From the NCBI GenBank assembly GCA_034231615.1, contig CM067317.1, positions 15,140,710 to 15,204,709 on the forward strand: a stretch of 64,000 nt of DNA, read 5' to 3'. Position 1 is the stretch's first letter, and each line of letters begins with the position of its first letter. The notes below the pieces were generated by a model, which saw only the letters and a list, made by a program, of their open reading frames with translations, ran no database searches and had not been told where the DNA came from. The stretch comes from Meghimatium bilineatum (lineage: Eukaryota > Mollusca > Gastropoda > Stylommatophora > Philomycidae). This document shows positions 18,601 through 39,600 of the stretch, one piece after another. The position numbers were made by a program, and so were the translations under genes.

Positions 18601-21600
18601 ATATCAAATATAGAAGACAGTAATATTTCATATACATTTAGGTGAATATAATAAAAAACACTATATCTGTAGTTATTGTATTAAAAAAATTGGAGAGTTC
18701 ATGCTTGGATAACGGAACTACTTTTTTTCCAGAAGGTGAAATTACAAGTTTTCTGAAATTATTTCCGTTGGTAATTATTACCCATCAGTGGGTGAAGGTG
18801 GATGAAGAATTACACAAAATTTGTGGATCAGCGCAGATTTTATAGAAAGTTGGAAGATAGTTCTGTTATCCAAACAGGAACCAACAGTAGAGTCTCCAAA
18901 GTTGGCCATCTCCCTATACTGACCACATTCCAAAGTTGACCATATTTTCATGTAGCAGCAATGCACCATAGTAAACTAAAAGTACAATAAGCTTGCTCCA
19001 TATGTTGACCACATGTGCATGTTGACCAGTTTGCTACTCTTCTTTGGGTGGTCACCTTATAGAGATTTGAATACACTTACATATTATCCATTTATGTTCT
19101 TTCAGTGGCGAATATGGTACACATGACAGAAACCAGTGCTCTCCATGTTTAGCAGTGTGCTGCTGCTGTATATAAATCTTGCATGTTGTTGAGACCCATA
19201 GCTTTATCCTTTTTTGATGGTTGTTCTATGAAGATCTTCTTTTGATCTTCCTCTCTTTCTATAGCTATTGGGTACGCACTTGTAGTGAAAGCATAGGCCT
19301 AATTGTATTAATTTTAAGTACATGTCCGATATATATAAACCACCATTTTTTTTCTTATTGTGGAAACATATTGTTATTTGGTCCTTCTCTTGTTTGCTTG
19401 TTTGACTTGAATTCTTCCCAGGTAATATCTAAGAAATTTCTAAGACATTTATTTTCCAATAAATTTCACTTCTTCTCCAGTGCATCTGTTAATTTCCAGC
19501 TTTCACAACTCTGTTAATACTGTTATTAACATTGGACGTAACACATGCATACCAGAACCTGATATAGAGAATTGAATCCCATTAAATATCATGGAGAGCT
19601 GCTCACAGCAGCTAAGCAATAGCATTGAATGTATAATATAAAAATGACAGTTTAAAATGGGTGAAAATTTTAAGTAATCACCTGAACAATCTTTCTGTTG
19701 ATATTGTATATAAAAACAATAATAAATTTCGTAGTCGTAACCTTTGATAACAGTTACCATGTTGTTCCGACAGGCCGACGTTGTGCGTGAACTAGTTGCG
19801 GGCACAGCATGAGTTAGCAGAACAACAAAGAAACCTTTCGCAAGGGCCAGAGTTGTGCCCTGATGTCAACGTCTGTTTCTGCGGCATTAGACTCAAAACA
19901 CAATAGAGTTGGACGGCTGCTGGAACAGAGGGCAGAGTACTTATGGGAATACCCCACGTTCTGTGAGGCCAGTTTCTAATCAAGAATAATAATAAATTAT
20001 CAGTAAACTAGGTTCTTTCCAAGATAACAAGTCTACATTTTTTGGGGAAAACGAAACAAAATTTAGGCAATAGTATTTCCCACAAATGATTTCCTTTGCT
20101 TAATCTATCTATAATTACCGATTACTGGTTTTGGGGACAAGATATTTAATTTAGAAACGTTGTATGAGTGGGGCTCTCAGTGGATGGTGCTCACAAGGGG
20201 AAGATCTCAGTGGATGACATACACATAGTTTAATCCAGCAGCAGACCTTGTAACTGTAACATACTTTCTACATCCCTAACAAACTTACAGTTACATTAGC
20301 CATTTGTTTCTAGGACAGAGCCAGCAGTCAGTGACATCACATAATTTTGGATTGGTGCAGATTTTATACAAAAAATGAATGTAGACCCGTTATCTGGGAA
20401 AGAACCGTAAATTAAAACTATTTGCATTTTCCCAGTTAATTTTCAGTGGGAGAAGTTTGTTCACCATCTCAACCAGTGATATTATCATAAAAAAGCTATT
20501 CACAGTCTGAATAAAAGTTAATTGGCTATGTTTTAACTAAAATAGCTGTCTGATACTTCCAACAATGAGAAAATATTGAAAACAACACTAGCATTAATTT
20601 TAATAACAGTATTATTGATATTAGCTGTGACAAAAATAGTGATGACTGAAAAGATCATCAACTCCAGAGCCATGAGTAAACCACAAATATGCAAGAACAT
20701 TTGTTATTATCAATATCCCTTTTTCTGCACTTGTTCTCAAACTCATGCAGATTAGCAGGATGTAGTCCATAGAACGGAATGCATAGTGTCATGGTTTATA
20801 GCTTTTTGTAATATCTGTGCCTTTTGGTCGGACACATTTGACTTCAGCATGGCTTCTTGCGCACTTTGACCATATATGGGATGAGACAGTAAACTTCACC
20901 CCATAACCTCCTTAGTTGCTTCTTTCGACTGGCTTGAAAGATAAATAGTGTTACTATTCTTTTCTTTCCTATCGGATCCCACAATACTCTTGCATTCATT
21001 TCAGTAACCTTACATCATCTCAATAACTTTGACATCTCTCATTTGCTACATTCTGAAATGGTACACTTTGACCTGTAAACATATCAATAACTTTGACATC
21101 TCTCATTTGCTACATTCTCAAATGGTACACTTTGACCTGTAAACATATCAATAACTTTGACATCTCTCATTTGCTACATTCTGAAATGGTACACTTTGAC
21201 CTATAAACATATCAATAACTTTGACATCTCTCATTTGCTACATTCTGAAATGGTACACTTTGACCTGTAAACATATCAATAACTTTGACATCTCTCATTT
21301 GCTACATTCTGAAATGGTACACTTTACCTGTAAACACTTAAACTTGTATAACAGTTCTATTACCTGCTGTCTTCACTGATAGCCATGATACGTGTTGTTT
21401 TCTCCTGGCATCCACACCTAATCATTCTTGTAACTTGGCTACGTGTAAGGGCCCAAAACTGCACGGTATAATTCAAGTGCCATAGAGTTAAAGTTCTTGG
21501 TGTGCTGACATATAGGATATTGTCATCTGTTATACCCATCCATTGGATGCCATCTACTGATGCAACCAGACTAAGTGAAAATTAAAACATTTAAAATTCA

Positions 21601-24600
21601 GCTGTGTTATAATGTGAAAGGTCCTAAGAATATCATGGACAGAAAAAAGAACTAACTCAGCTGTCCATAAAGATCTGAGCACAGAAGTAGACTGGCTCCT
21701 CAAAACTATCAAAAATTCAAATTTACATATTTCTGACATATAGAAAGACACAATGGTTTGGGAAAATTAATCATGGAGGGGAACGTTCTTGGAAAGAGAA
21801 CAAGAGGCAGACCAAGACTACAATGGATATGTGACATCAAAGATTTTCTGAACATGACACTAGATGAATCTAGGCAGTTCACACAGAACCGTGAGGATTA
21901 CAGTGTGGACAATATTCTGCAAAGGACATGCGACATAGTCAAAGAGAGAGTTAGAGAGAGAAATAGTTATAATGTGCCTTCTTCTTAAAATTTGATATGT
22001 ACAACTTATCTGTTTTATCAAAAACAGTTTTCTCATCATCAACTAGGTGAAGAAATTTCCATAAAGTAAGAAAACAATATCATTCCATTAGTGTGACAAC
22101 TAGGAGTTTTGGAAAGGATATCATTCCATTAGAGTTTTGGAAAGGATATCATTCCATTAGAGTTTTGGAAAGGATATCATTCCATCAGAGTTTTGGAACG
22201 TAAATAATTTCATTAGAGTTTTGTAAAGGATATTCCATTATAGTTTTGGAAAGGATATCATTCCATTAGAGTTTTGGAAAGGATATTCCATTAGAGTTTT
22301 GGAAAGGATATCATTCCATTAGAGTTTTGGAAATGATATTCCATTTGAGTTTTGGAAAGGATATCATTCCATTAGAGTTTTGGAAAGGATATCATTCCAT
22401 TAGAGTTTTGGAAAGGATATTCCATTAGAGTTTTGGAAAGGATATCATTCCATTAGAGTTTTAGAAAGGATATTCCATTCGAATTTTGGAAAGGATATCA
22501 TTCCATTAGAGTTTTGGAAAGGATATTCCATTCGAATTTTGGAAAGGATATCATTCCATTAGAGTTTTAGAAAGGATATTCCATTCGAATTTTGGAAAGG
22601 ATATCATTCCATTAGAGTTTTGGAAAGGATATTCCATTTGAATTTTGGAAAGGATATCATTCCATTAGAGTTTTGGAAAGGATATTCCATTAGAATTTTG
22701 GAAAGGATATCATTCCATTAGAGTTTTAGAAAGGATATTCCATTAGTGTTTTGGAAAGGAAATTTGTTGATGAGCTGGATCTTTATATCATGGTTTACTC
22801 ACATTGTGATATATTTGTTTGCTTTTCATAAAGGTAGTTTATTTCTTCTTCTGCATTTGTTCTTAAACTCCTGCAGATTGCAGGATGTAGTTCAGAGAAT
22901 AGATTGTTTTGTTTCATCATTTCCAGCTTAGCTGTGGTATCTGCGAGATTCAGCTAAACACATTTTAGCATGTATGTTCTTCATATAATCTTTAAAAAAA
23001 AGGTTTTCCTTTTCTCTTTGAAATATTTTGCAAAAAATAAATGAAGTAACAAAGTAAATGTTATACCTGATGCAACATGATTTATAAAGTAAATGTTATA
23101 CCTGATGCAACATGATTTATAAAGTAAATGTTATACCTGATGCAACATGATTTATAAAGTAAATGTTATACCTGATGCAACATGATTTATAAAGTAACGA
23201 TGAAGATGATGATATAATCCCTTTAGCTGTGATCAGGTAACTCTTGACAGCCCATAGCCTTTCTGATGAAAGCAAAAGTTCTTCTGAGCTGTGTAACTGA
23301 GGGGACACCCAGATTAATATAAGGTCTCTAAGGCATGAATGTTTGGGAGGGGGGAGGTGTATTTATGCATATTTAGTCTCAGATGAGAGGCCTTTCAGTG
23401 GATCTGTATCCCAGGATTACCAAGTTCTGCCAGAGGCATATCACACACATCTTGGCCAACTATTTCATCATTCTTCTATCAAATATGTTGACCCATCCAC
23501 AATGATGCCACATCTAGCATTCCCTGTTACCTGGGAGTCTGTCACAAAAGGGGACAAAGGCGCAATGTCCACTGGAATGTATCATTTTGTAATCATGATA
23601 ATTACTTATTCTTATTCTTTGCACCCTGAAAAAATAAGTCCAGGAATAATTATAAAAATCAATACCCTTACTATCCAAATAAATAGATTCTAGAATGTTC
23701 TTAGACCTATATTTTTAACAAAGGCTGTGCCTACTTTAAATGTAGGTGCAAACAGGAGACCAAACTGAATCAAATTTACTTGATAAACTATGTAGAAAAA
23801 ACCCCCACCAACTCCCACAGATTGTAGCTTCACCCACTGATAAACCAAAACTACTACACCTGTCGTAATTTAAAGGTCAACTCCAAACACTATTCGCTCA
23901 GGCTTAAGTAATCCATTTGATTATATTTGCATATCATTTTCAGAATAATCACCATCTAAACCTAATTCATCATGCTCTGAATCATCAAGCACAAACTTAA
24001 GCAACTTGTTCACCTGTCTTTGAACACACATAAAATCCGAATTTTCAACAAGTGGTTTTAAAAATATCTTAATTCACTGACAAGATATTGTGAACACATG
24101 TACTTTATTTTGTGAAGCAGCTATCTCAAAATGCTATGCATACTTTGTGATGTCATTAATATGTGTAAATTTATTAATAATAATTAATGTTTTGTGAAGT
24201 CAAAATACTGAAAATTCAGTCCATCAGAATATGAAAAATGTCAATTCCCAGAATTTCGGGATCCCGAAATCTAAGGGTTTTAATTCAATGAAATAAAGGT
24301 TAAACATTTACCTGTAGAGACAATCCATAGTATCAAGAGACCACATGCGAACAGTTCCATCCAAAGAACAAGTAATGACAATGCTAGATGTCATTGGATG
24401 TAAGATCAGATTAGTAACTGCTCGAGAGTGGCCTCGAAAAGTGTGGATGAGACCTCCAAAAAGACTCCAGACTTTAACTATTTTCCAAAATAAAATGAAT
24501 AAACAGTAACATTTCAATAATGAGTAATAACTGCAGAAAAACTGTAATCCAACAGGTTAAACTTTGTACAGGGTAATTAAGTTTTTCTAATCACTGGTAT

Positions 24601-27600
24601 ATCAAACATGGGACAGCATTATCACGATCCTTACCCAGTGTTATTTTAAATACCGTGTTCCTTTTCTTCTGGTAGTTCTCAAAATCATGCAGGTTAGCAA
24701 GATGCAGTCTGAAGAACGGTATGTGTTGTATAATGGTTTAAAGCTTTGCTGAAATATCTGTGCCTTTCGGTCTAACACATTTGACTTCAAAATGGCTTTG
24801 GGTCACCCTATGGGATGGGATAGCCAACTTCTTCATCATCAAATTCACCTTAGTTGCATCTTACATCACATATGGCAGGTAATAGTATTGCTATACTATG
24901 TCGTCCCCTTCAAGCCCAGCAACAGATGGAATTATTTTAATATCAATGATGTAATTGTCTAACCAAAACTGTAAGTTTTATCTAATGATTTTTGACAACC
25001 TTCACATTGAATATACCTTCACTATCAAGAGATGAAGTCACAAGAACTGTAGCATTCCTGGAATACCTACACCCAGTTATAGACATTGAATGTGCTCTGA
25101 AAATATAACGTTTTTAAAGTGTTACTTAAGAATGTTGCACATGATAGTTGTTGATATAGGTAATTATGATGTTATAGTGCTCACAGGTGGATCTACACAT
25201 TGTGATCAATGTAGGTGGATCTACACATTGTGATCAATGTAGGTGGATCTACACATTGTGATCAATGTAGGTGGATCTACACATTGTGATCAATGTTCTC
25301 TTGCGAAGTGTGCCAAAACTCGGAAATCCTACAAAACAACTTGGATTTCTACAATATTAATTTGATCTAAATATTTGTTTAGAATAATGTTTTTCAACCA
25401 ATAAAATAACCGTGTACATCAAAATAGACTGTGAACTTTGTAAATAGAAAAGAACATCACGAGAAAGATGAACAGGTCAACATGTAGGTCTATAGCTACT
25501 GTACTAACATATGGCCATGAATCAACATCACTGATTATTTAACTCTCTGATGTGAACATTGACTGTGTCATTCATTATGTTTGTTATGTCCTAAAGCCCT
25601 TTTGATCAACGTCATTTTTTGTGTGCTTTCCTATGTGATTCTAGTGATTATAAAAACTTCATTGCCCTGTAATTACAATATTTGCTTGTCAGTAATTAGT
25701 TTTATTAGTAATAGTAACTATATGGCACTTTAAAAACAGAAGATTTATCAACATAATAATAATAATAATATCCCATAATCCATCAGGGTTATAGTATTGC
25801 CACGTTGGAGACATAAGCACGAATTGCCCTTTAAACCCTTCTCTCTTCAGACATTTAGACAAGTGTAAAAATATCATGCCCAGACCATTCACTGATGCTG
25901 TTAATCTAGAATATTCTCTGTTTGCCTCTTTGTCTTCCAACCTCAACTGTTCCTTGAACAAACAATTGTCTAGAAAGTGAGTCATATTTTGTTACAAGTC
26001 CAAACCAAACAGGCATGCACTGTTTCACCACTACCAAAAGTGATTTTTAATAATCTGCAAGTTTGTTTATTTTCTGCCATACAAATATATTTGTCTAATG
26101 TAATAATTAAATATCTGATCTATTCAGCTCCTTTTTTATATATAAAACCGTAGCATGACAAGGTCATAGGGGTAACACTAGATTCACCAACACACAAAGT
26201 ACTCCAGAAATTCTGTAAGTTTTAGTATTTTGCCATTTTTTCTCTGTGTCTGATTATATATTACAATATTTCAGAGGATGAAAAGTTTAGCTGGTGGTAC
26301 CCATCTCCTCTCCAGTTATCCTTACAACATGATTACAACATACATGTGTTTTATCCTATGGTATTCATTACACTGTACTGATGTTGACACTACATTTTGT
26401 TTGTTGCACAGTTTATCAGTTTACCAAGATGGCAAGTGGGTCTAAGTGTACATTTTAGTGGTCAATGAGGAATAAGTTAACAAGGTGAGATATTTTAAGT
26501 CTATTATAATAATAATAATAATGATATCAGATAAGCAATCTTTAGTGAATATGTTACTCATACAATGACAAACATAATCAAGCAAACCTCTCAAACTTGA
26601 ATAGTAACTTCCCATCTAGATTATAGGTATATAGGTCATGCTCACTACAGAAATACAAGTGTTCCATCTGGTGATCTAATTCCACTCGCTTGACCCAGCT
26701 ACCTCCCACATTTGGAAGTTCATACCTTGAATAAAATGTATAACTTGAAACATTGATGTGGTATAGATATCGATATGTTTTGTGTGATATTATCACAGAA
26801 ATTTGTGCTATCCAGAAGCAAATTTACTGGACAAAGTATAACATTATATTCTAAAACTGTCAGATATATTCTTAAATAAAGAGTAACACTTAGACATGTA
26901 CAGCTGTATTAACACATGCTCGTGTATAAACTTCATTGCAATCCAGGCAGGTATATAGGTTCTCAGTCTCACTTAATAGATGATAAAGGGTGTGCTTGCA
27001 GATGTTTCACGCAGGCTGCTGGTTGAAGATTCTTTTTGTTAAGTCCTGCAAGCATCCAGTTCTACTATTATGATGCTTCATACTGAATTCCTCAAATCTT
27101 AGACTAGATGTATCATCAATAGTATGACTACATCCAGTCAAATGTCAAATACTGCATGTCCCCATTAAACATTTGCAGGGAGAGATTTTGTAGCTGTGTG
27201 ATAAAGGCCGCACACTCTTGCTGTCACCACATCATGTGCAGGATGAGTTTTTTAACTCTTTCAACACGTAATTATACCCGGGGTTTAGACGTAATTAATT
27301 TTAGGCTAACTTTTTGGACCGCAACATGATTCAGGCGCAAGCTTCCTGAAGACAAAGTATTAGCTATGGAAAGTCATATAAGGTATCAAAAGAAAGATAA
27401 TTGAATGTGAAATTCATATACAATATAAAAATGTAAGAATTGTAAGAACAATAATACTTGCCATTTACGAACCAAACAAGGTCAATTTGGAGGGTATATA
27501 TGGAGTCCCATTATAACGGGCTTACGTCCTTAAAGGGTGCCGGGTCTGTCCAGTTATAACGGGCTTACGTATGAATTGAGTTAAATGCATCCAGTAGCAT

Positions 27601-30600
27601 ACAGGATGCATCCAGTAGACACTTATAAAACTGTTCCTGCAATTCCTTTTTATCCATTACCAACTCCCCAAATCCATTGCATTGGATGTAAGCATGTCTG
27701 ATCTCTCTCTCTCATTGCCATACACACCCCAATGGCATGAGTAGCAGATTCATGATACCCAGGAGTTTAGACATAGCTGAAGATGCAACACACTCATAGT
27801 GATACATTTGCTATTGTGGATTGTGTGCAGCATGGACTGAGAGTCTGATACAATAACTACCTTTATAAATAGTCACAGAGCCATGTGAGGACTGCAATAA
27901 CAACCTTTAGTCACAGAGCCATGTGAGGACTGCAATAACAACCTTTAGTCACAGAGCCATGTGAGGACTGCAATAACTACCTTTACAAATAGTCACAGAG
28001 CCATGTGAGGACTGAAATAACTACCTTTACAAATAGTCACAGAGCCATGTGAGGACTGCAATAACTACCTTTACAAATAGTCACAGAGCCATGTGAGGAC
28101 TGCAATAACTACCTTTAGTCACAGAGCCATGTGAGGACTGCAATAACTACCTTTAGTCACAGAGCCATGTGAGGACTGAAATAACAACCTTTAGTCACAG
28201 AGCCATGTGAGGACTGAAATAACTACCTTTAGTCACAGAGCCATGTGAGGACTGCAATAACTACCTTTAGTCACAGAGCCATGTGAGGACTGCAATAACA
28301 ACCTTTAGTCACAGAGCTATGTGAGGACTGCAATAACTACTTTTAGTCACAGAGCCATGTGAGGACTGCAATAACTACTTTTAGTCACAGAGCCATGTGA
28401 GGACTGCAATAACAACCTTTAGTCACAGAGCCATGTGAGGACTGCAATAACAATCTTTAGTCACAGAGCCATGTGAGGACTGCAATAACTACCTTTAGTC
28501 ACAGAGCCATGTGAGGACTGCAATAACTACCTTTAGTCACAGAGCCATGTGAGGACTGCAATAACCACATGAACTTCCATCCTCATACTGCAAGGGTGGG
28601 CAAACTACGGCCCATGGGCTGCATGCGGCCTGCCATTGGATATTTTGCAGCCCTCAAACACATTTTTAAATACACGAACATTGTTAACTCTTTCAGGACC
28701 TGAGTATTTTTAGGTTTGGACCAGAGTAAATTTTAAGTGTAGAAAAATTTCCTTACATGTGTTCTTCATTGTATCCCTTGACATACTAATATTGATAAAT
28801 AGTGTATGTGTAATATATCATTGGAAAGGGGAATGGATACAGAATATGAATATATAAGTACATTGATGATATCTGATTACTTCACAAGGTTAGAGTTAGT
28901 AAAACACACAAAAATAAAATGAAAATATTAATTTATTAGTATAAATATTGTGACTTACCCAAATGTGTCCATACTTATCATTGATTATATCCATTTGTCA
29001 AGAATGTTTACACAAGTATATTCAATTCTCTTAATTATGCATTTTATTTGATGAATTTCTATCAATAAATGTTAAAGTTATGTTAATTTTTCTGAATGAC
29101 ACCAGAAGCAATAAAAATATGAAAATATTTCAGGGGTAGAAAAATTTCCTTACATGTGTTCTTCATTGTATCACTTGACATACTAATATTGATAAATAGT
29201 ATATGTGTAATATATCATTGGAAAGGGGAATGTATACAGAATATGAATATATAAGTACATTGATGATATTTGATTACTTCACAAGGTTAGAGTTAGTAAA
29301 ACACACAAAAATAAAATGAAAATATTAATTTATTAGTATAAATATTGTGACTTACCCAAATGTATCCATACTTGTCCATGATTATCATTGTTGATATCCA
29401 TTTTTCAAGAATATTTACACAAATATATCCATTTTTCTTCATTATGCAGTTTAGTTGATGAATAAATATCAATAAATGTTAAAGTTATGTACATTTTTCT
29501 GAATGACATCAGAAGCAATAAAAATATGAAAATATTTACATCCAGTCACGGCTTTATTATTTACATGTTTTTATTTGTTACAAATGAGATCATCTTGTGT
29601 GATATTCCCTAAAGCATGATTTAGCACACAGATGTGGCTTATGTGAACATCCTATGCAGTAGTAGCTACTGCGCTTTCGTATTTGCTTAGTAGCACAATG
29701 AGCACATTGCCTGTCTTTTCCACCGGAGTCAATGAGATGGGTGGTTCCCTGATACCTTTCAAGCTCTGTATTTACTGTTTTTCTTCCTGGCTTGGACAAT
29801 AAAGCAGCATCAATGTTATTAGGTGCCTCTAATTCAAATAAACTACATAGCTCCTCTATCAATATGTCCTTGAAGTTTGAAAGGGGCATAGGCTTCTCTG
29901 CGCAAGGGCGGCTAAGTGTGTATAAAATGTGGGCGTTGAGTTGTGTTATTTCCAACACCCACATAAATACTTTTTTCCACCACTTTACTGTTTTTCTTGT
30001 GTGGTTTCCATAATATGAAATCATCTGATCTACTCTATCACATCCATTCATTGACATATTGTAATTATGAATGGGTGATGGTTTCCAGACTTCGCTCCTA
30101 CCCTCAATTCTAATTTCACATGTTGCGCTTCCACATGTTGTTACCAGTTGGCAAGGTTTCTTCGATTTTTTATCTCTCCAGCTGACACACATAACTTTAT
30201 CTTCATCATTTATGAACCATTTTGGTTGATTGACAGCTATTTTCTTATTCTTCATTTCTTGTGGAAACCCTCGTCTGTTCGCATTGAGAGTTCCAGTATA
30301 ATGGTGATTTCTCTGCCGCAGAAACTGGACAAGAGGTAAGGACGAATAATACCTGTCAGCAAACAAATGGTGATGTCCTGTGATGCCTTCTAGTAGTTTG
30401 TCAAAAATTTTGACAGCATGGGTAGACTTTGTATCAGTTTCCAGCCTGTATGTCGTGTCCGCACCAAAATATACCAGCAGGTTGAAAACATATCCAGTGA
30501 TGGAGTCGCAGAGTCCGTATGATTTTATATGATATTTTTTTGGCTTGCTTGCATTATATTGCTTGTGCCTAAACCTTCCCTTGTGGCCTATAACCATCTC

Positions 30601-33600
30601 ATCTATACATATGTTTTCAGAAGGATAGAATGCATTCTGAAAGCTTGCAACTAATTCATTTATGAACGGCTCTATTTTAATTTTACCCTGTGCATCAGCT
30701 CCAGCCGCATGAAGCATTGATTGGTAAATCAATAAAAATTTGGTCCTGCTGAAAATTGATCCAAACCAGGGGCTACTTCTGTGTGTTTTTGTGGACCAAA
30801 AATCTTTTATGGAATGTTTGGGGTCCAAACCCATGTTTATCAGGGTGGCGAGAAACTTCATAAAAATATTTCGGTCGAGCGCAGTCCATTTTGAATAAGT
30901 AGAATATTTCCTTCGAGGTGTATTCATTTCCAATTTCTGCTGGGCATAAGAGTTTACATTGGCTATTAGATTGTCAATTATTGGTTCTGTCATCAAGGAT
31001 AGTAAACACTGGAGAGGTGAGGCATTTTCAGGAAGGCCAAGTTTGCAGCCAGAATGTATCTGTCTGAAGTGAGACACTCCTATACTCTCTCCTTCTAGGG
31101 CTTCACGCCACACAGCATCAGTCCTAGGCCTACCTTGTCGATCTGTGGAAGTATGATTCATAGGCCTACTTGTAGCATTAGTAGGCCTAGAAGTACCAGC
31201 TAAATCCTCTGAATCAGTAGATTCATCACTACTATTAGATGCTTCTTCAGAGGAACTAACATTACTTGATCTGATGCAAGCTGTTACATTTTTTATAAAA
31301 CCTACACCAGTTTGCTTTGGTTTCTTACCTTTCGACAAGTCACTAGGCCTATAATCACTATCGGAATCATCATTATCAGATTCACTAACTAGCAAGCTCT
31401 GAAACATAACCATAGCTTGTTCTGCACTGTATCTAGAAGAAGTGGGCGTTGCCATTTTTTTCAGAAATAAAAGTTACAGAATATGTCGATCACAAATCTT
31501 CTTGTACACACCACATGTGTTTCGGTACCGGTTGTAAAACGGAAGAGGATCTTTCCCGGATGTTCAGAGGTTAACATAAAAACTTGAACTGGGCAAAACG
31601 AAATATAACTGATCAATATATGATCGATCTAAGACGTTGATCAATCAAAGCCAGTATACTGGCGATTGGTCCTGTAGACCCACAGTATAAAGCCAGTATA
31701 CTGGCGATTGGTCCGGAAAGAGTTAAAATATTTGCAAAACCTTTTATCCATATTAGAAAATATACTGTTATAGTGTAAGTCTGTTAGAAATGTAATTTAT
31801 TTCAGAAGTTATCTACATTATGTAAAACTACCTTTCTCTAAAATAAAAAAATTTAATTGATTACTTACCGAGAATTTTAAACAAAAACATACATAATATT
31901 ATATGCGGCCCTCCAATAGCTTTACAATTTTCAATGCAGCCCTCTGCACAAAAAGTTTGCCCACCCCTGTCATACTGGATGTAGTTGTTCTGTATGCTCT
32001 ACTATGCTTGATAATCTCTACTACAATTGAATCCCTCTATATGCATCCTCTTATAACACATTTCTCTATTTAACCCCTTAGCTGCGGAGGTATTCTTAAG
32101 GATACAATGAAAAGCTGGCTGCTATTTTGCTGTGTTCCTCCTCTTCTTAGCTGCCAATGACAAAAATATGTCTGGAAGTTTATAATAAAGCACCCATATG
32201 AATTATTTGCCTGGAAAACTAAGAAGAAAAAGATTTCAGCCACATGGCGGCAGCCCCTCATCGTATCCTTAAGGATACCTCTGCAGCTAAGGGGTTGATA
32301 ACACACTTTTCAAAATTCCCAATTATATTTATTCTTTATTATTAGTACTATATATAACAAATTTCTGTTAATAAATACATGTTTCATTGTTTAACCTTTA
32401 GCAAGCCAGATTAAAAAATACGAAACGTCTCCCTGCCACCGGATTCTTTTTTGAAAATTTGCATTATTGATGGTGACTGTTTTGAAAATGTGATAATTTT
32501 TTGGTTGTTAGAGATATTTAAATAATATTTGCACATATAAATAAAGAATTGAATTATGCATAGGGTAGCCGGGGGTAAAGATGCGCTGGGGGCAAAGATT
32601 CGCAGTCGTTTTTTTCTGGAACTATGGGTTTTTCCCGCAAACCACGTGGCCACGCCGGACGCTAACATCCGTTTCTGTCGCACAATGAATTTTCATCGGT
32701 CACGGGCAGGTCATTTTTGAGCTATGGGGTAAATTCATTTTTTAACGTTCTCGATCTAACTTTTTTTCCACTTCTCACTCTTTGTCCTCTGTTATCATTA
32801 CTGTCATCTTATTTTACATATCTGAACTGAAAACTATATTGTATTGTTAAGTTATTAAGCATGTTACATTGTCAAGATAATTTTTGTTTGCATGATATTT
32901 TATATAAATTGTGAACAGTGTGATTTTGGGGTAACGCCGCGCACACTGATGGGGCAAACATGCGCTGCTGACTGACTGCGCATGTTTGCCCCAGTCACTT
33001 CTCCCTCATGTTGCCAAATATTTAAACCAATATTTTATTGTCACGTTATGTTTCTTTTTAGGAATTACAAACGGAAAATTGAGAAAATGATGCCACTGAC
33101 TGAAAATGAAGCAGTCGCTGCTATAGATGCACAATCTCCGCCAGTCATAGATGCACAATCTCCGCCAGTCATAGATGCACAATCTCCACCAGTCATAGAT
33201 GCACAATCTCCGCCAGTCATAGATGCACAATCTCCGCCAGTCATAGATGCACAATGTCCGCCAGTCATAGATGCACAATCTCCGCCAGTCATAGATGCAC
33301 AATCTCCGCCAGTCATAGATGCACAATCTCCGCCAGTCATAGATGCACAATCTCCGCCAGTCATAGATGCACAATCTCCGCTATTCATAGATGCACAATC
33401 TCCGCCAGTCATAGATGCATAATTACCGCCGGTCATAGTTGCACGATCTCTGCCTGTCATAGTTGTACGATCTCCGCTGATCATAGATGAACGACCTCCG
33501 CTATTCATAGATAGTTGAAATTATAGTCGAACGCTTTATAGAGCACCCCAACACGTTGTAATAGTTTTAAACGGATCTAAGCACTCAGTCTCTGTATTAA

Positions 33601-36600
33601 ATTAATTTTTCATATTTACTTTTTTTCATTATTTTTTCGTATTAAAGTTACATAAAGATACATATGCCTAGTCTTTGTGCTCTATTATCTTCCCACATTG
33701 TGACTGACTATGTTTAGATAGGAAGTGACGTTGTTATTTTGCTGGTTTTGTCAATTTTCCCATGATTTTGTAATTGTTTTTGCCTGCGCGTGTTTGCCCC
33801 AGAAATTGGGGCAAAGGTGGGATTATACTCATGTTCATAAAATCTCACTCTACGAACTAAACGTGATTGTATGTTGTAAATACCCTGACGATTGTTAGAT
33901 GGATGGATAAGCTACACACTGCTGCTAGTTTGGTCTCTCATAGTTAAGTCTATTTGTCATAATACGGAAAAATGTGAAAAACGCGCATCATTGCCCCCGG
34001 CTACCCTATATTGGTGTAATTTATGTACGTGTGTGTGTGTGATACCAGACGTATGAGAAAGTGGTAAAGACGTTTTTCACAAAAAACATATATTTTATAA
34101 CAAATAAAGAGGGAAAAAATAAGAAAAAAAAATAACTTACCTTACATATCGAATTCCTTGGCAACACTGTCAACTAAATCACGTAAATCTGTTGTATTTA
34201 TGTTCTTTCACTGCGAAATTATCAAAATATAGCCGGGGGAACTGTATAAAACATGTAGATTTGCAGTAAAATCGTTCTTTGAGCTTAGGCCTAGAGTTAT
34301 TTTTTCTGCCACTTCAAAATATTCGATATCAAACGTACAAGTCCCCAAACCAGCACGGCATTCTGTATATTCACTGCTGTGAAACTAAATAACCTAATAA
34401 TCCATGATTCAATCCACGATTCAATGTTATTTTATTCGAAATACGATGAAATAAAGGTCTGTAAAACCGATCCATCATCATGGCATCGTACCGGTGTACA
34501 GATGTGGTCAGATTAATTGCTCTTAAACTTTTACGAATAGCCAGCCATTCTCAAAAACGATCATGTCGGAAGTGGGGGATGTACCGGCTTCGATTGCGCA
34601 TGTCCCCAGCTATGTGCATGGAGTGTGGTACGTGTAAATCTCACGATAATCTCGCTGGGTGGGACGGCCCGCCATCAGCGCGCGCGGCCATTTTGTTTTT
34701 CGGCGGCTGGATATCATATCGGCTCGGTGAAGGTTAAGACCAAACTGTTATAAATAAATGGATCTTACTGTACTAGGACCGACTATGAAACCTCAGCCAG
34801 ACTTCTCATCCTGATACACAGATCCATTCAGTGAAGACAATATCACCATTTCTGGCATTATCTGCAATCAGTCGATCAATTTTTAGGATTGCTTTTCAAT
34901 TGTCCCAACTTTAATATCCCTGTCAAGGCAAATTATAACCTTGTGAAAGCTTGTCATGGTCTCATCAATTGCCATCAATTTTCTTCTGTTGGTAAGTTCG
35001 AGAATGTGATAACTTCTATTGTCATGTAAGAGTGTGCCATCTATGACATGCAGTGCCTAATTCTTGTACTAACAAAACATGATATCATAAAATGTGTATA
35101 AACTTTGGAAACTAAATTATCCTAATTGAAAGCTGCAAATTAAAAATAAAAACAGATGTAGCCCTACTTGAGAGTAAGCTCATAGTTGGTATGAGTTTTC
35201 AGGTCTCCAAAATTGTTTGCAGACTGTTGGAGGAAATGCCATACCTGTAAGATATGATAGCATGAAATTAGTCTTCAGAGACAATACATGGTAGATACAC
35301 TGGTGAGTCATTTCAGAGCACAGTAAGGGATACAGAATATCTACATCAAGTACATTGATGGTGGTTGAGGCTGTTAGTGCAACCCTTCATTGATTATTTG
35401 GACTTCTTCTCCACCTCATCTTCCTCTTCTTATTTTGCATTAGTTCGTCCCCTCCTGTAAAATAGCAGGATTTAATCTAAATATAGGAATATATAGGGTT
35501 ATAGCTTACATATTAGTTGTGATATCTGTGTCTTTTCATACAAAATTGAAAAACAAATTCCATGAGTCAATGACTACAACAATTATTGACTTATTGATTT
35601 ACCAGCTTGACAAGTTGGTTTAAGTGACGGTTTTAGTGGTTTTTGAGAAATAAAATGGTAACGTGTGTATTTTTTATAATAGTAATAATGTGGTGATGAT
35701 TTAATTTCTAATGTTATGGGCAGGCAGCTCATAGTCATAGGTCTCAACTAGTATGAATTTTCCATATTAATATAGATTTCAGCCCCCCTCCCCCCCCCCC
35801 CCCAAATATTAAAATAAAACCACAATTTAGAAAAAAAAATTATTTTAAAACAGGCCACTTGGTGTTAAATTTCCTAGTATTTATTACTAATACTGATGTT
35901 TTTATCTCACACTCATATTGAGAGGCAAAAAATAATAATTTTTTAATTTTAAAATTTTGTGGGAGTTTTTGTGTGTGTTAAATACAGACGTTTTTATTGA
36001 CATATTGAAATAAATTGTAAAAAATACATATTTATGAAAAACTAAGTTCAAATCTATGCCATAGCTCTTCTGACAAATGTACATGTTCCCCTCAGTTGTA
36101 GTGCAGTTATGTTGAGTGTGTTGTGTATGGTTGGAAGTGGTGGTAGTAATTCTTGTCGGATGTATATTAGTTTTGAGCACTGCAGTAAGAGATGTTCAAC
36201 AGTCTTCTTTTGTATGTTACAGTGTCTGCAGTTTGGTACGTGTAATGGATTTTTTCTGTTCATATGTTTATTAACGGGGGAGTGGCTTGTTCTTAGTTGA
36301 AATGTGAAACTCTGGATTATCCTCCCAAGTTGTTTTAGAGGGTCCATTGGGTTGGTTTTCTGTTGGTGTTCATACAGTAAGTGCCCAGTCTTTGAGTTGG
36401 CCCACTGTCCTAGCCATTCTTGTCTGTAATTGTTTCTTAGGATTTATTTGCATATTTGAAGAGAAATTTTGGGGGAAACTGAAGGACAGCTGCACATCTC
36501 GTAGATAGTTTATCAGCCATTTTATTTCCAGGGACCCATGCATGACTAGGTATCCATTGGAGGGTGAATTCTGTGCCATTATAGGTGAATAGCTGGTCAA

Positions 36601-39600
36601 TTTTTCTATTTATGTTGCAATCAGGAAGTGACTTTTTGTTCTCTAGGACCTGGAGTGCTGATTTTGAGATTATATCTTCAGGTGGAGCAGTTCCATTCTC
36701 GAAGCCCACAATGATTTGGTTCAAAGCTTTCTCGATTGCTATTGTCTCAACTGCGTAGTTAGAGCAGTAATAATGTGAAGTAAAAAGATGAAATATGTAT
36801 AACTATATAATTAGACAACTTGATCATGTTTTACTCCCAAAATGCTACATAAGACAGAATGGTGAATGTTATGAAAGGAATAGTTAATACTAGTGAACAA
36901 CTCGGTTTTCCAAAGCATTACATGCCCTGGTCATGCAGGGGTCAAAGGCAATGTAAGAGCAGACTCAATGGCAGACAATGATGTGGTTGATGAATAGATA
37001 AGACAGATCTAACAAGGGCAGTCATAGATTTACTACAGAGTAAAGAAGATGATGCTGGAGGGTGATAATCTACAAATACACAGACAGAAATGGGGATGAC
37101 CAGGCATCAGGGAAGAGTGTGCCTTCCTCATGACATAATCAACATATGACTGTGATTTTGAGTCAGAATACTCTTGGATGGCTGCTAGAATGGTGAGCTG
37201 AGCTTATATGTGAAGGCTCCATGTGCCATGACACTGGTTTCTAATAAATAATCAATAAAATTATAATGCTTACACAATGTGTAGCAAGCACTCACCTTAG
37301 TTCCACCAACACCCCCTGTTATGAGCTCATCTCTGATAGGATTGAAGAGCATGAAGAGTACTGACCTTAAATCAGCATTAACTGAGCATGTTTCAATAAA
37401 ATCTCTGTTGTATACCTGAGGTAATGACACTATATATTATTTTACATATGTCTACACACAAAAATCAAGACGTTTTAGTTTTGCTAAGACATAATTATCA
37501 ACTAAAAACACATTAAACAATCTGGACAAGAATAAATAATTGTCAAATGAGAAACTCTTGTCTTAGCCACTTGTGCTATGAAGCATTTATTTCAAGATGG
37601 ATGATGTCAATGAGGCTGAGAACGTACATATATAGAGAATGTCAGAAATAGGAGTATCTCAATCAACATCTGACTCGGACTTGAGTCTACATACACTGGG
37701 ATGGCTGCTGGAACAGAGGGTGGAGCACTTATGTAAATGCCCGACCTGCTGTTAAGCCAGTTTCTAATCAAGAATCAATCATGGGGAGCTAAAGTCTATG
37801 TTAATCCCATGGGGTTGTAGAATTTCTCTGATATTATAGATCCATTTACGCCTTGGTCTTCCTCTCGCTCTCATCCCGGATATTCTGCTGTTATACACTC
37901 TCAGCGAGAGACATTCAGGTTCAATTCTCCAAAAGAGAAAGTGTCATAAACAAAAGTGATAACTGATGGGACTGCAGTAAAACTGTTTGCCAATATTTAT
38001 TAATGGAAAATATGAAATAATATGTTTTACGGTTCTCAAAGCAGACTGACATGAGAAAAAATAGCTAACAGACATAATTAACAATTTGACCAAAAGGTTT
38101 TTATAAAGAATAATATACAGGACACATGGACAGCAAACAATAAAAACTAAAATGTCTGCAGTCTAGTCCATCTGTTGTAATATTATTTGTATTGATTTAT
38201 CTCCATATGTCCTGAATTTTTTCTTGATAAATACCTTTTGATTGAAACATGTATTCAGTATATTTTGTAAACTTCTAAATATATTTTGTATGTCATTCTG
38301 TTTTAAGAACATAATTTTAGAATGTACTAATTATTAATACCTAAACAGAATGTATTAATACCTAATTAATGTTCAATTGTGTTTTCCATTAATAATTAAC
38401 AAAATAAAAAGATGGATGAACAAACATTATCCCTTTTATACAAAAATACAAATAGGATTAAAGTCTTATATAACTATCTAGATTGATTGAATCTGGGAAA
38501 ATAACAAAGTACTGTAAGAGTCACCACCTCATACTTATTGTTAATGTCATATTTACATTATTTTTTAAAGCTATTTTTAAGCAAGCATAATAATAATAAT
38601 AATAAAAATAATAATAAAACCCATAACCCATCAGGATCATAAGGGTGTCACACTGGAGACATTAGCAGAAAAAGTCCTTCAAACACATCTGGTAGAAATT
38701 CTGAGGCGTGTAGAAAAATCATGTCCAGATCATTCCTTGATGTTATAAATCCAGAATTTTCTCCTTCCATAACTGACTGTTCTTTGAAAAATAATTTTAT
38801 AAAATGAGTCGTATCCCGCTACATTTCCAAAACAAACAAGATCTTGCCGCTTCACCAGTGCCAAAAGTGGTTTTTAATAACCTGTAAGTTTATTTATTTG
38901 CTGCCGGATGAATATATTTGTCTTGTGGATGTATATATGTTTTGTATAACTAATTATGAACAGACATCTTTAGCCCTTGTATTCAAATCTCTGAATCCTT
39001 ATTTCCATGTCTGCATTGACTTTCAAGCTTTCACATTCGTATAAAAGTATACTTAGCACTAGCAATCTGAATAGATTGACCTTTACTGTAATACTGATCT
39101 TACTTGTCCAAATTACACTCGACCTTACCAATGCAGTCATCCATCACTATCTTGAGTCTTAACTTAATTTCATTTCCTATGTATGAAAAAATGGAGTAGA
39201 ATGACAGCTGTGTTTATTGTTTGCCAATAAGCCAAGATTCAGAGAGGAGTTGGGCACTACCGAGTAACATTCTACCCATGGAAATGCTACATTGGAAGAA
39301 TGCATAGCTCAGTGATATTAAACTGGAGCTACACATATTCTGTTGGTGTTTATTTCTTAGCGCAACCAATTCTCCAGACACCCAGCTGAAAATGGATACC
39401 AGAACTTAAGACTGCATAGCAATCATATTCACTTCCCGAGCCACAGTGCAAATGTCCTGTCACTGACACTTTCATGAGCTGACATAATCTAAGCACATAT
39501 TAGGGCACACAGAGACATCATCACCAAATCCATAACTTCTCAGAGTTGTGCCACTCTGGAAACATCGACACAAAAATCCTGCCATGACTCTCTGTTCTCA

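Follow-up and report, generated by a model that had tools for sequence, protein, structure and literature searches.

A piggyBac transposon nested in a non-autonomous hAT element of Meghimatium bilineatum and its family across the genome

Members of the piggyBac superfamily such as T. ni piggyBac and piggyBat share the duplication of a TTAA target, short inverted ends, and a transposase with a DDE_Tnp_1_7 domain. For the T. ni element, the account in PMC7351741 covers the role of the transposase residues D268, D346, and D447, as well as a cysteine-rich domain that binds a palindromic repeat. Among hAT transposons, the Buster group is described as targeting nnnTAnnn, and Mar, a Buster-type MITE of Drosophila willistoni, has the ends CAG(G/A)GGTAGGC (PMC3517528). 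A combination of two elements has been outlined for CMITE-IN of Acropora corals, in which a piggyBac-related element occupies a TTAA of another element (PMC2872659). The locus described here shows the same kind of arrangement.

The locus was analyzed in a window of 64,000 nucleotides (C20:15140710-15204709) of the Meghimatium bilineatum genome, which was searched over 1.61 Gb in 32 contigs; all positions given without a contig refer to this window. A preliminary description had proposed that a piggyBac element is nested in a hAT MITE at 28583-31977, and we find that these coordinates are exact and that both target duplications are perfect. Both elements are newly described members of known transposon kinds. 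Nested transposons are common, so the nested arrangement is in itself ordinary. The locus is a clean textbook case of nesting, and it yields relative ages for two transposon families of the genome.

The outer element is bounded by two identical copies of the 8-bp sequence TCATACTG, at 28583-28590 and 31970-31977, each with TA at positions 4-5, in agreement with the exact duplication noted earlier. For this pair, the computed probability that two fixed places agree in all 8 bp is approximately 1.5e-5, and TCATACTG is found four times within the window, the number expected by chance. Inside the duplications lie a left piece (28591-28683, MITE positions 1-93), starting with CAAGGGTGGGCAAACT, and a right piece (31727-31969), terminating in AGTTTGCCCACCCCTG; by our count by eye, these ends are complementary at 15 of 16 positions. 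Removal of the insert together with one TTAA copy restores a MITE of 340 bp, which aligns over its full length with other copies in the genome. The restored MITE contains four TTAA sites, at positions 76, 94, 224, and 248, of which the piggyBac element took the one at position 94.

The hAT MITE belongs to a large family, with 1,460 first-look candidates in the genome. For comparison we used 29 further copies, retrieved by their similarity to the right half of the MITE. A scripted comparison found an exact 8-bp duplication on the left and right in 19 of the 29; the remaining ten comprise three copies that are off register and seven without an exact left match. One of the off-register copies (L021) has flanks that match at 7/8 in a separate alignment. 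With the three off-register copies omitted, the central TA (positions 4-5) is present in 26/26 right half-sites. Another of the three (L022, G000:C18) lacks the usual hAT left end within the 340 bp aligned. The duplication at the window locus, TCATACTG, fits the motif nnnTAnnn, and the outer hAT is of the Buster type, as judged by this target motif. The family is reminiscent of Mar in its closely similar ends, its 8-bp nnnTAnnn duplications, and its many non-coding copies; Mar also has a longer relative with transposase remnants, to which a longer relative of the present family may correspond. It differs from Mar, as described in PMC3517528, in length (340 bp versus 610 bp), the sequence comparison covering the ends.

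Longer relatives that retain both ends of the MITE are also present. Two of these, L020 and L027, both among the 29 copies compared, carry 1,059 bp and 205 bp of extra sequence, respectively, near position 88, and a third, L066, has approximately 2,070 bp between the shared ends. Three frames of L066 were scanned against Pfam: one lies at the cut-off for Dimer_Tnp_hAT (21.4 bits), the second matches zf-C2H2_12 below the cut-off, and the third has no match. A short frame of L020 gave no match in Pfam, PDB, or NCBIfam. These longer relatives and the frame matches in L066 suggest that the MITE is probably an internally deleted form of a longer hAT. The hAT transposase may resemble GTF2IRD2-like hAT proteins.

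The inner element spans 3,039 bp, one TTAA included, and splits the MITE at the TTAA of position 94. As the preliminary description had read from the sequence, it is flanked by TTAA on both sides, at 28684-28687 (MITE positions 94-97) and 31723-31726, next to inverted ends of 13 bp at 28688-28700 (plus strand) and 31710-31722 (minus strand) that match at 12/13; with the TTAA included, the terminal inverted repeats form 17-nt arms with 94% complementarity. The designation of the element as intact is borne out by an open frame of 621 residues plus stop on the minus strand (29590-31455), so that the left end lies behind the transposase gene. Also behind the gene is a tandem array with a 397-bp unit, present in the window copy as two units at 28730-29537 with spacings of 397 and 407 bp. 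In this array, which comprises one to five units across the family, the element differs from T. ni piggyBac and piggyBat.

Two 26-nt repeats of identical sequence lie on the plus strand close to the right end and contain the palindrome GCCAGTATACTGGC. They are located at 31647-31672 and, 42 bp further on, at 31689-31714, the latter overlapping the right inverted end. Palindromic subterminal repeats near one end are likewise described for T. ni piggyBac (PMC7351741); the presence of two identical 26-nt palindrome-bearing repeats sets the window element apart. By analogy with the palindromic repeat that is bound in the T. ni element, these may be candidate binding sites for the transposase.

The predicted protein matches the Pfam family DDE_Tnp_1_7 with an E value of 8e-68 and DDE_Tnp_1 slightly over the cut-off. 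A C-terminal cysteine-rich zinc finger, as in the T. ni protein, is present, its zf-Tnp_2 score of 24.3 bits being barely over the cut-off of 24. Two solved structures were matched at an E value threshold of 0.01, piggyBat (9c0f, E 2e-43) and 6x67 (E 1.5e-23), and these values place the window transposase only distantly from both in sequence. The second is listed under the name "Transposase", and we take it to be T. ni piggyBac, with which the aspartates agree: D285, D367, and D473 align with D268, D346, and D447 of 6x67, so that the DDD triad is present, with a further aspartate at D476. In NCBIfam, the transposase gave only two matches, to IS701 models, both far under the cut-off. The TTAA duplication, the inverted ends, the DDE_Tnp_1_7 domain with its DDD triad, and the zinc finger together assign the inner element, by its sequence, to the piggyBac superfamily.

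The nesting suggests an order of events in which the hAT MITE arrived first, with its 8-bp duplication, and the piggyBac element later entered the TTAA at MITE positions 94-97. We give this reading a probability of about 97%, on the basis of MITE paralogues that lack the insert, a junction found at one place, and the more advanced decay of the outer element; the same order had been proposed from the locus itself. None of the 29 paralogues carries a piggyBac element at the corresponding site, and apart from a 1-bp indel in two copies (L024 and L035) there is no insert at positions 90-111; being paralogues, they show the MITE without piggyBac and not the window locus in another individual. The TTAA at position 94 is kept in 28 of the 29, L021 reading ATAA.

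The two elements also differ in decay. Against the majority of its relatives, the MITE shows ten changes in 340 bp, six of them CpG transitions. The piggyBac element departs from the column majority of 21 copies by three substitutions in a 2,187-bp core, one of which is a CpG transition. The difference in rate is significant with all changes (Fisher p = 3e-7) and without CpG transitions (p = 0.004), where the values are relative and are not dates, both sets having been picked by similarity, and some of the differences in the MITE may already have been present in its source copy.

The 8-bp duplication encloses both elements, and the anatomy of the single locus would be compatible with a MITE that gained the piggyBac element elsewhere and then moved here with it as a unit, TCATACTG being made around both. 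In CMITE-IN the composite seems mobile itself according to PMC2872659, whereas the 104-bp right piggyBac/MITE junction is matched end to end at the window locus only, of 40 scored candidates (1,697 at first look). A composite hAT/piggyBac mobile unit was rejected on this count. If the donor was lost, a single cut-and-paste step would produce no second copy, which keeps such a move in consideration; against it stand the absence of hAT MITE sequence from the other piggyBac loci fetched (0/20) and a MITE more decayed than its insert, and we regard it as very unlikely. The large MITE family would also supply partners for a recombination between different copies, in which two half MITEs were joined and the match of the ends is accidental. 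This is hard to reconcile with an exact outer duplication and an exactly duplicated inner TTAA, and the two pieces join into a collinear 340-bp copy with neither gap nor overlap, making this history extremely improbable.

In the preferred order, hAT first and piggyBac second, a non-autonomous 340-bp Buster-type hAT would have inserted and made the 8-bp duplication, presumably mobilized in trans by an autonomous relative. An autonomous piggyBac element, excised elsewhere by its own transposase, would then have entered the TTAA within the MITE and duplicated it, its movement probably proceeding by cut-and-paste as in the T. ni element.

The inner element belongs to a family for which our genome counts are lower bounds. 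The array unit was found at at least 91 places in at least 40 piggyBac elements, the window copy counted. Across 40 copies, six have one unit, 19 have two, 14 have three, and one has five. Flanks and frames were compared in 20 of the 39 other elements. TTAA is present on the right in 20/20 and on the left in 18/20, L041 and L042 being the exceptions, and the flanks differ between copies. The 621-residue frame is retained in 11 of the 20, the longest frame being shorter in the remaining nine. Over the 2,187-bp core these copies carry 1 to 78 substitutions relative to the majority, and two of them (L051 and L055) have no differences from each other.

A genome-wide search with the transposase protein, in which 71 of 3,381 candidates were scored, gave at least 76 matches. 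At least 32 of these, the window copy included, are stop-free, full-length frames (residues 1-621) at 99-100% identity; the remaining 44 are partial or contain stops, with identity down to 76%. The family thus appears, from these sequences, to be young in its main burst, with older relatives in the same genome. These further matches share 76-97% identity, and most are broken or partial; their presence speaks against one very recent arrival, which we rejected as the sole history. A virus as carrier was likewise rejected: in IMG/VR, the sole collection scanned, one stretch matched a pattern, and tblastn found nothing related to the transposase. No paper describing the family was recognized by its title or the start of its abstract in the literature searched, which is not proof of absence.

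Some of the copies may still be mobile. Tentatively, and with somewhat more doubt than confidence, we suggest that the family is autonomous and still transposing in the species, and that the variable 397-bp array could have been shaped by transposition, for example by gap repair after excision. With its 32 stop-free full-length frames at 99-100% identity and the intact ends of fetched copies, the family could supply a new natural piggyBac system, which would be of interest for gene transfer in the laboratory. It also offers a case of a young family expanding alongside its own older, broken copies. Of the present observations, this possibly live piggyBac family most deserves to be followed.

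The nested pair had further been said to occupy a conserved gene's intron, a claim that holds in part. An exon-like frame on the minus strand (24311-24556) matches WD40 in Pfam (E 5e-8) and many WD40 chains among solved structures, but three other frames that by eye look coding and resemble exons belonging to one gene (37188-37436, 26581-26823, and 21363-21581) match no Pfam family at an E value of 0.1, and a pattern search for an exon linking the host-gene frames across the insert gave no clear one. The nested pair (28583-31977) would fall between the frames at 26581-26823 and 37188-37436, and an intronic position in a conserved gene is plausible. Of six further window frames compared with Pfam, one gave a weak match of interest, to RNase_H (36440-36802), below the cut-off.

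Several other features were observed in the surroundings. Tandem arrays are abundant in the window (32 rows, some overlapping), and a minisatellite with a 38-bp unit and 17.8 copies (27870-28565) ends 17 bases short of the left hAT duplication. On the other side, 92 bp past the right hAT duplication, starts a palindromic MITE (32070-32298) whose self-complementarity is 71% across 227 bp and which has TTAA on its left and TTGA on its right; by its sequence it appears to be a piggyBac-type MITE from a different family. A relative of this palindromic MITE (L053, 6068-6301; 81% identity) has one terminal TTAA in common with a copy of the piggyBac family found in the window. One member of this pair took its TTAA from the other, and either may have been there first.

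The CpG transitions in the MITE of the window lie at positions 24, 25, 30, 41, 59, and 309, and the observed/expected ratio of CpG in the window is 0.44; together with their share among the ten MITE changes, this suggests DNA methylation of transposons in the host. Within one of the fetched loci (L059, 1501-2124; G000:C2:121989805-121990428), a mitochondrial COX1 fragment is found inside a nuclear contig. It is open under the invertebrate mitochondrial code and adjoins an apparent tandem array.
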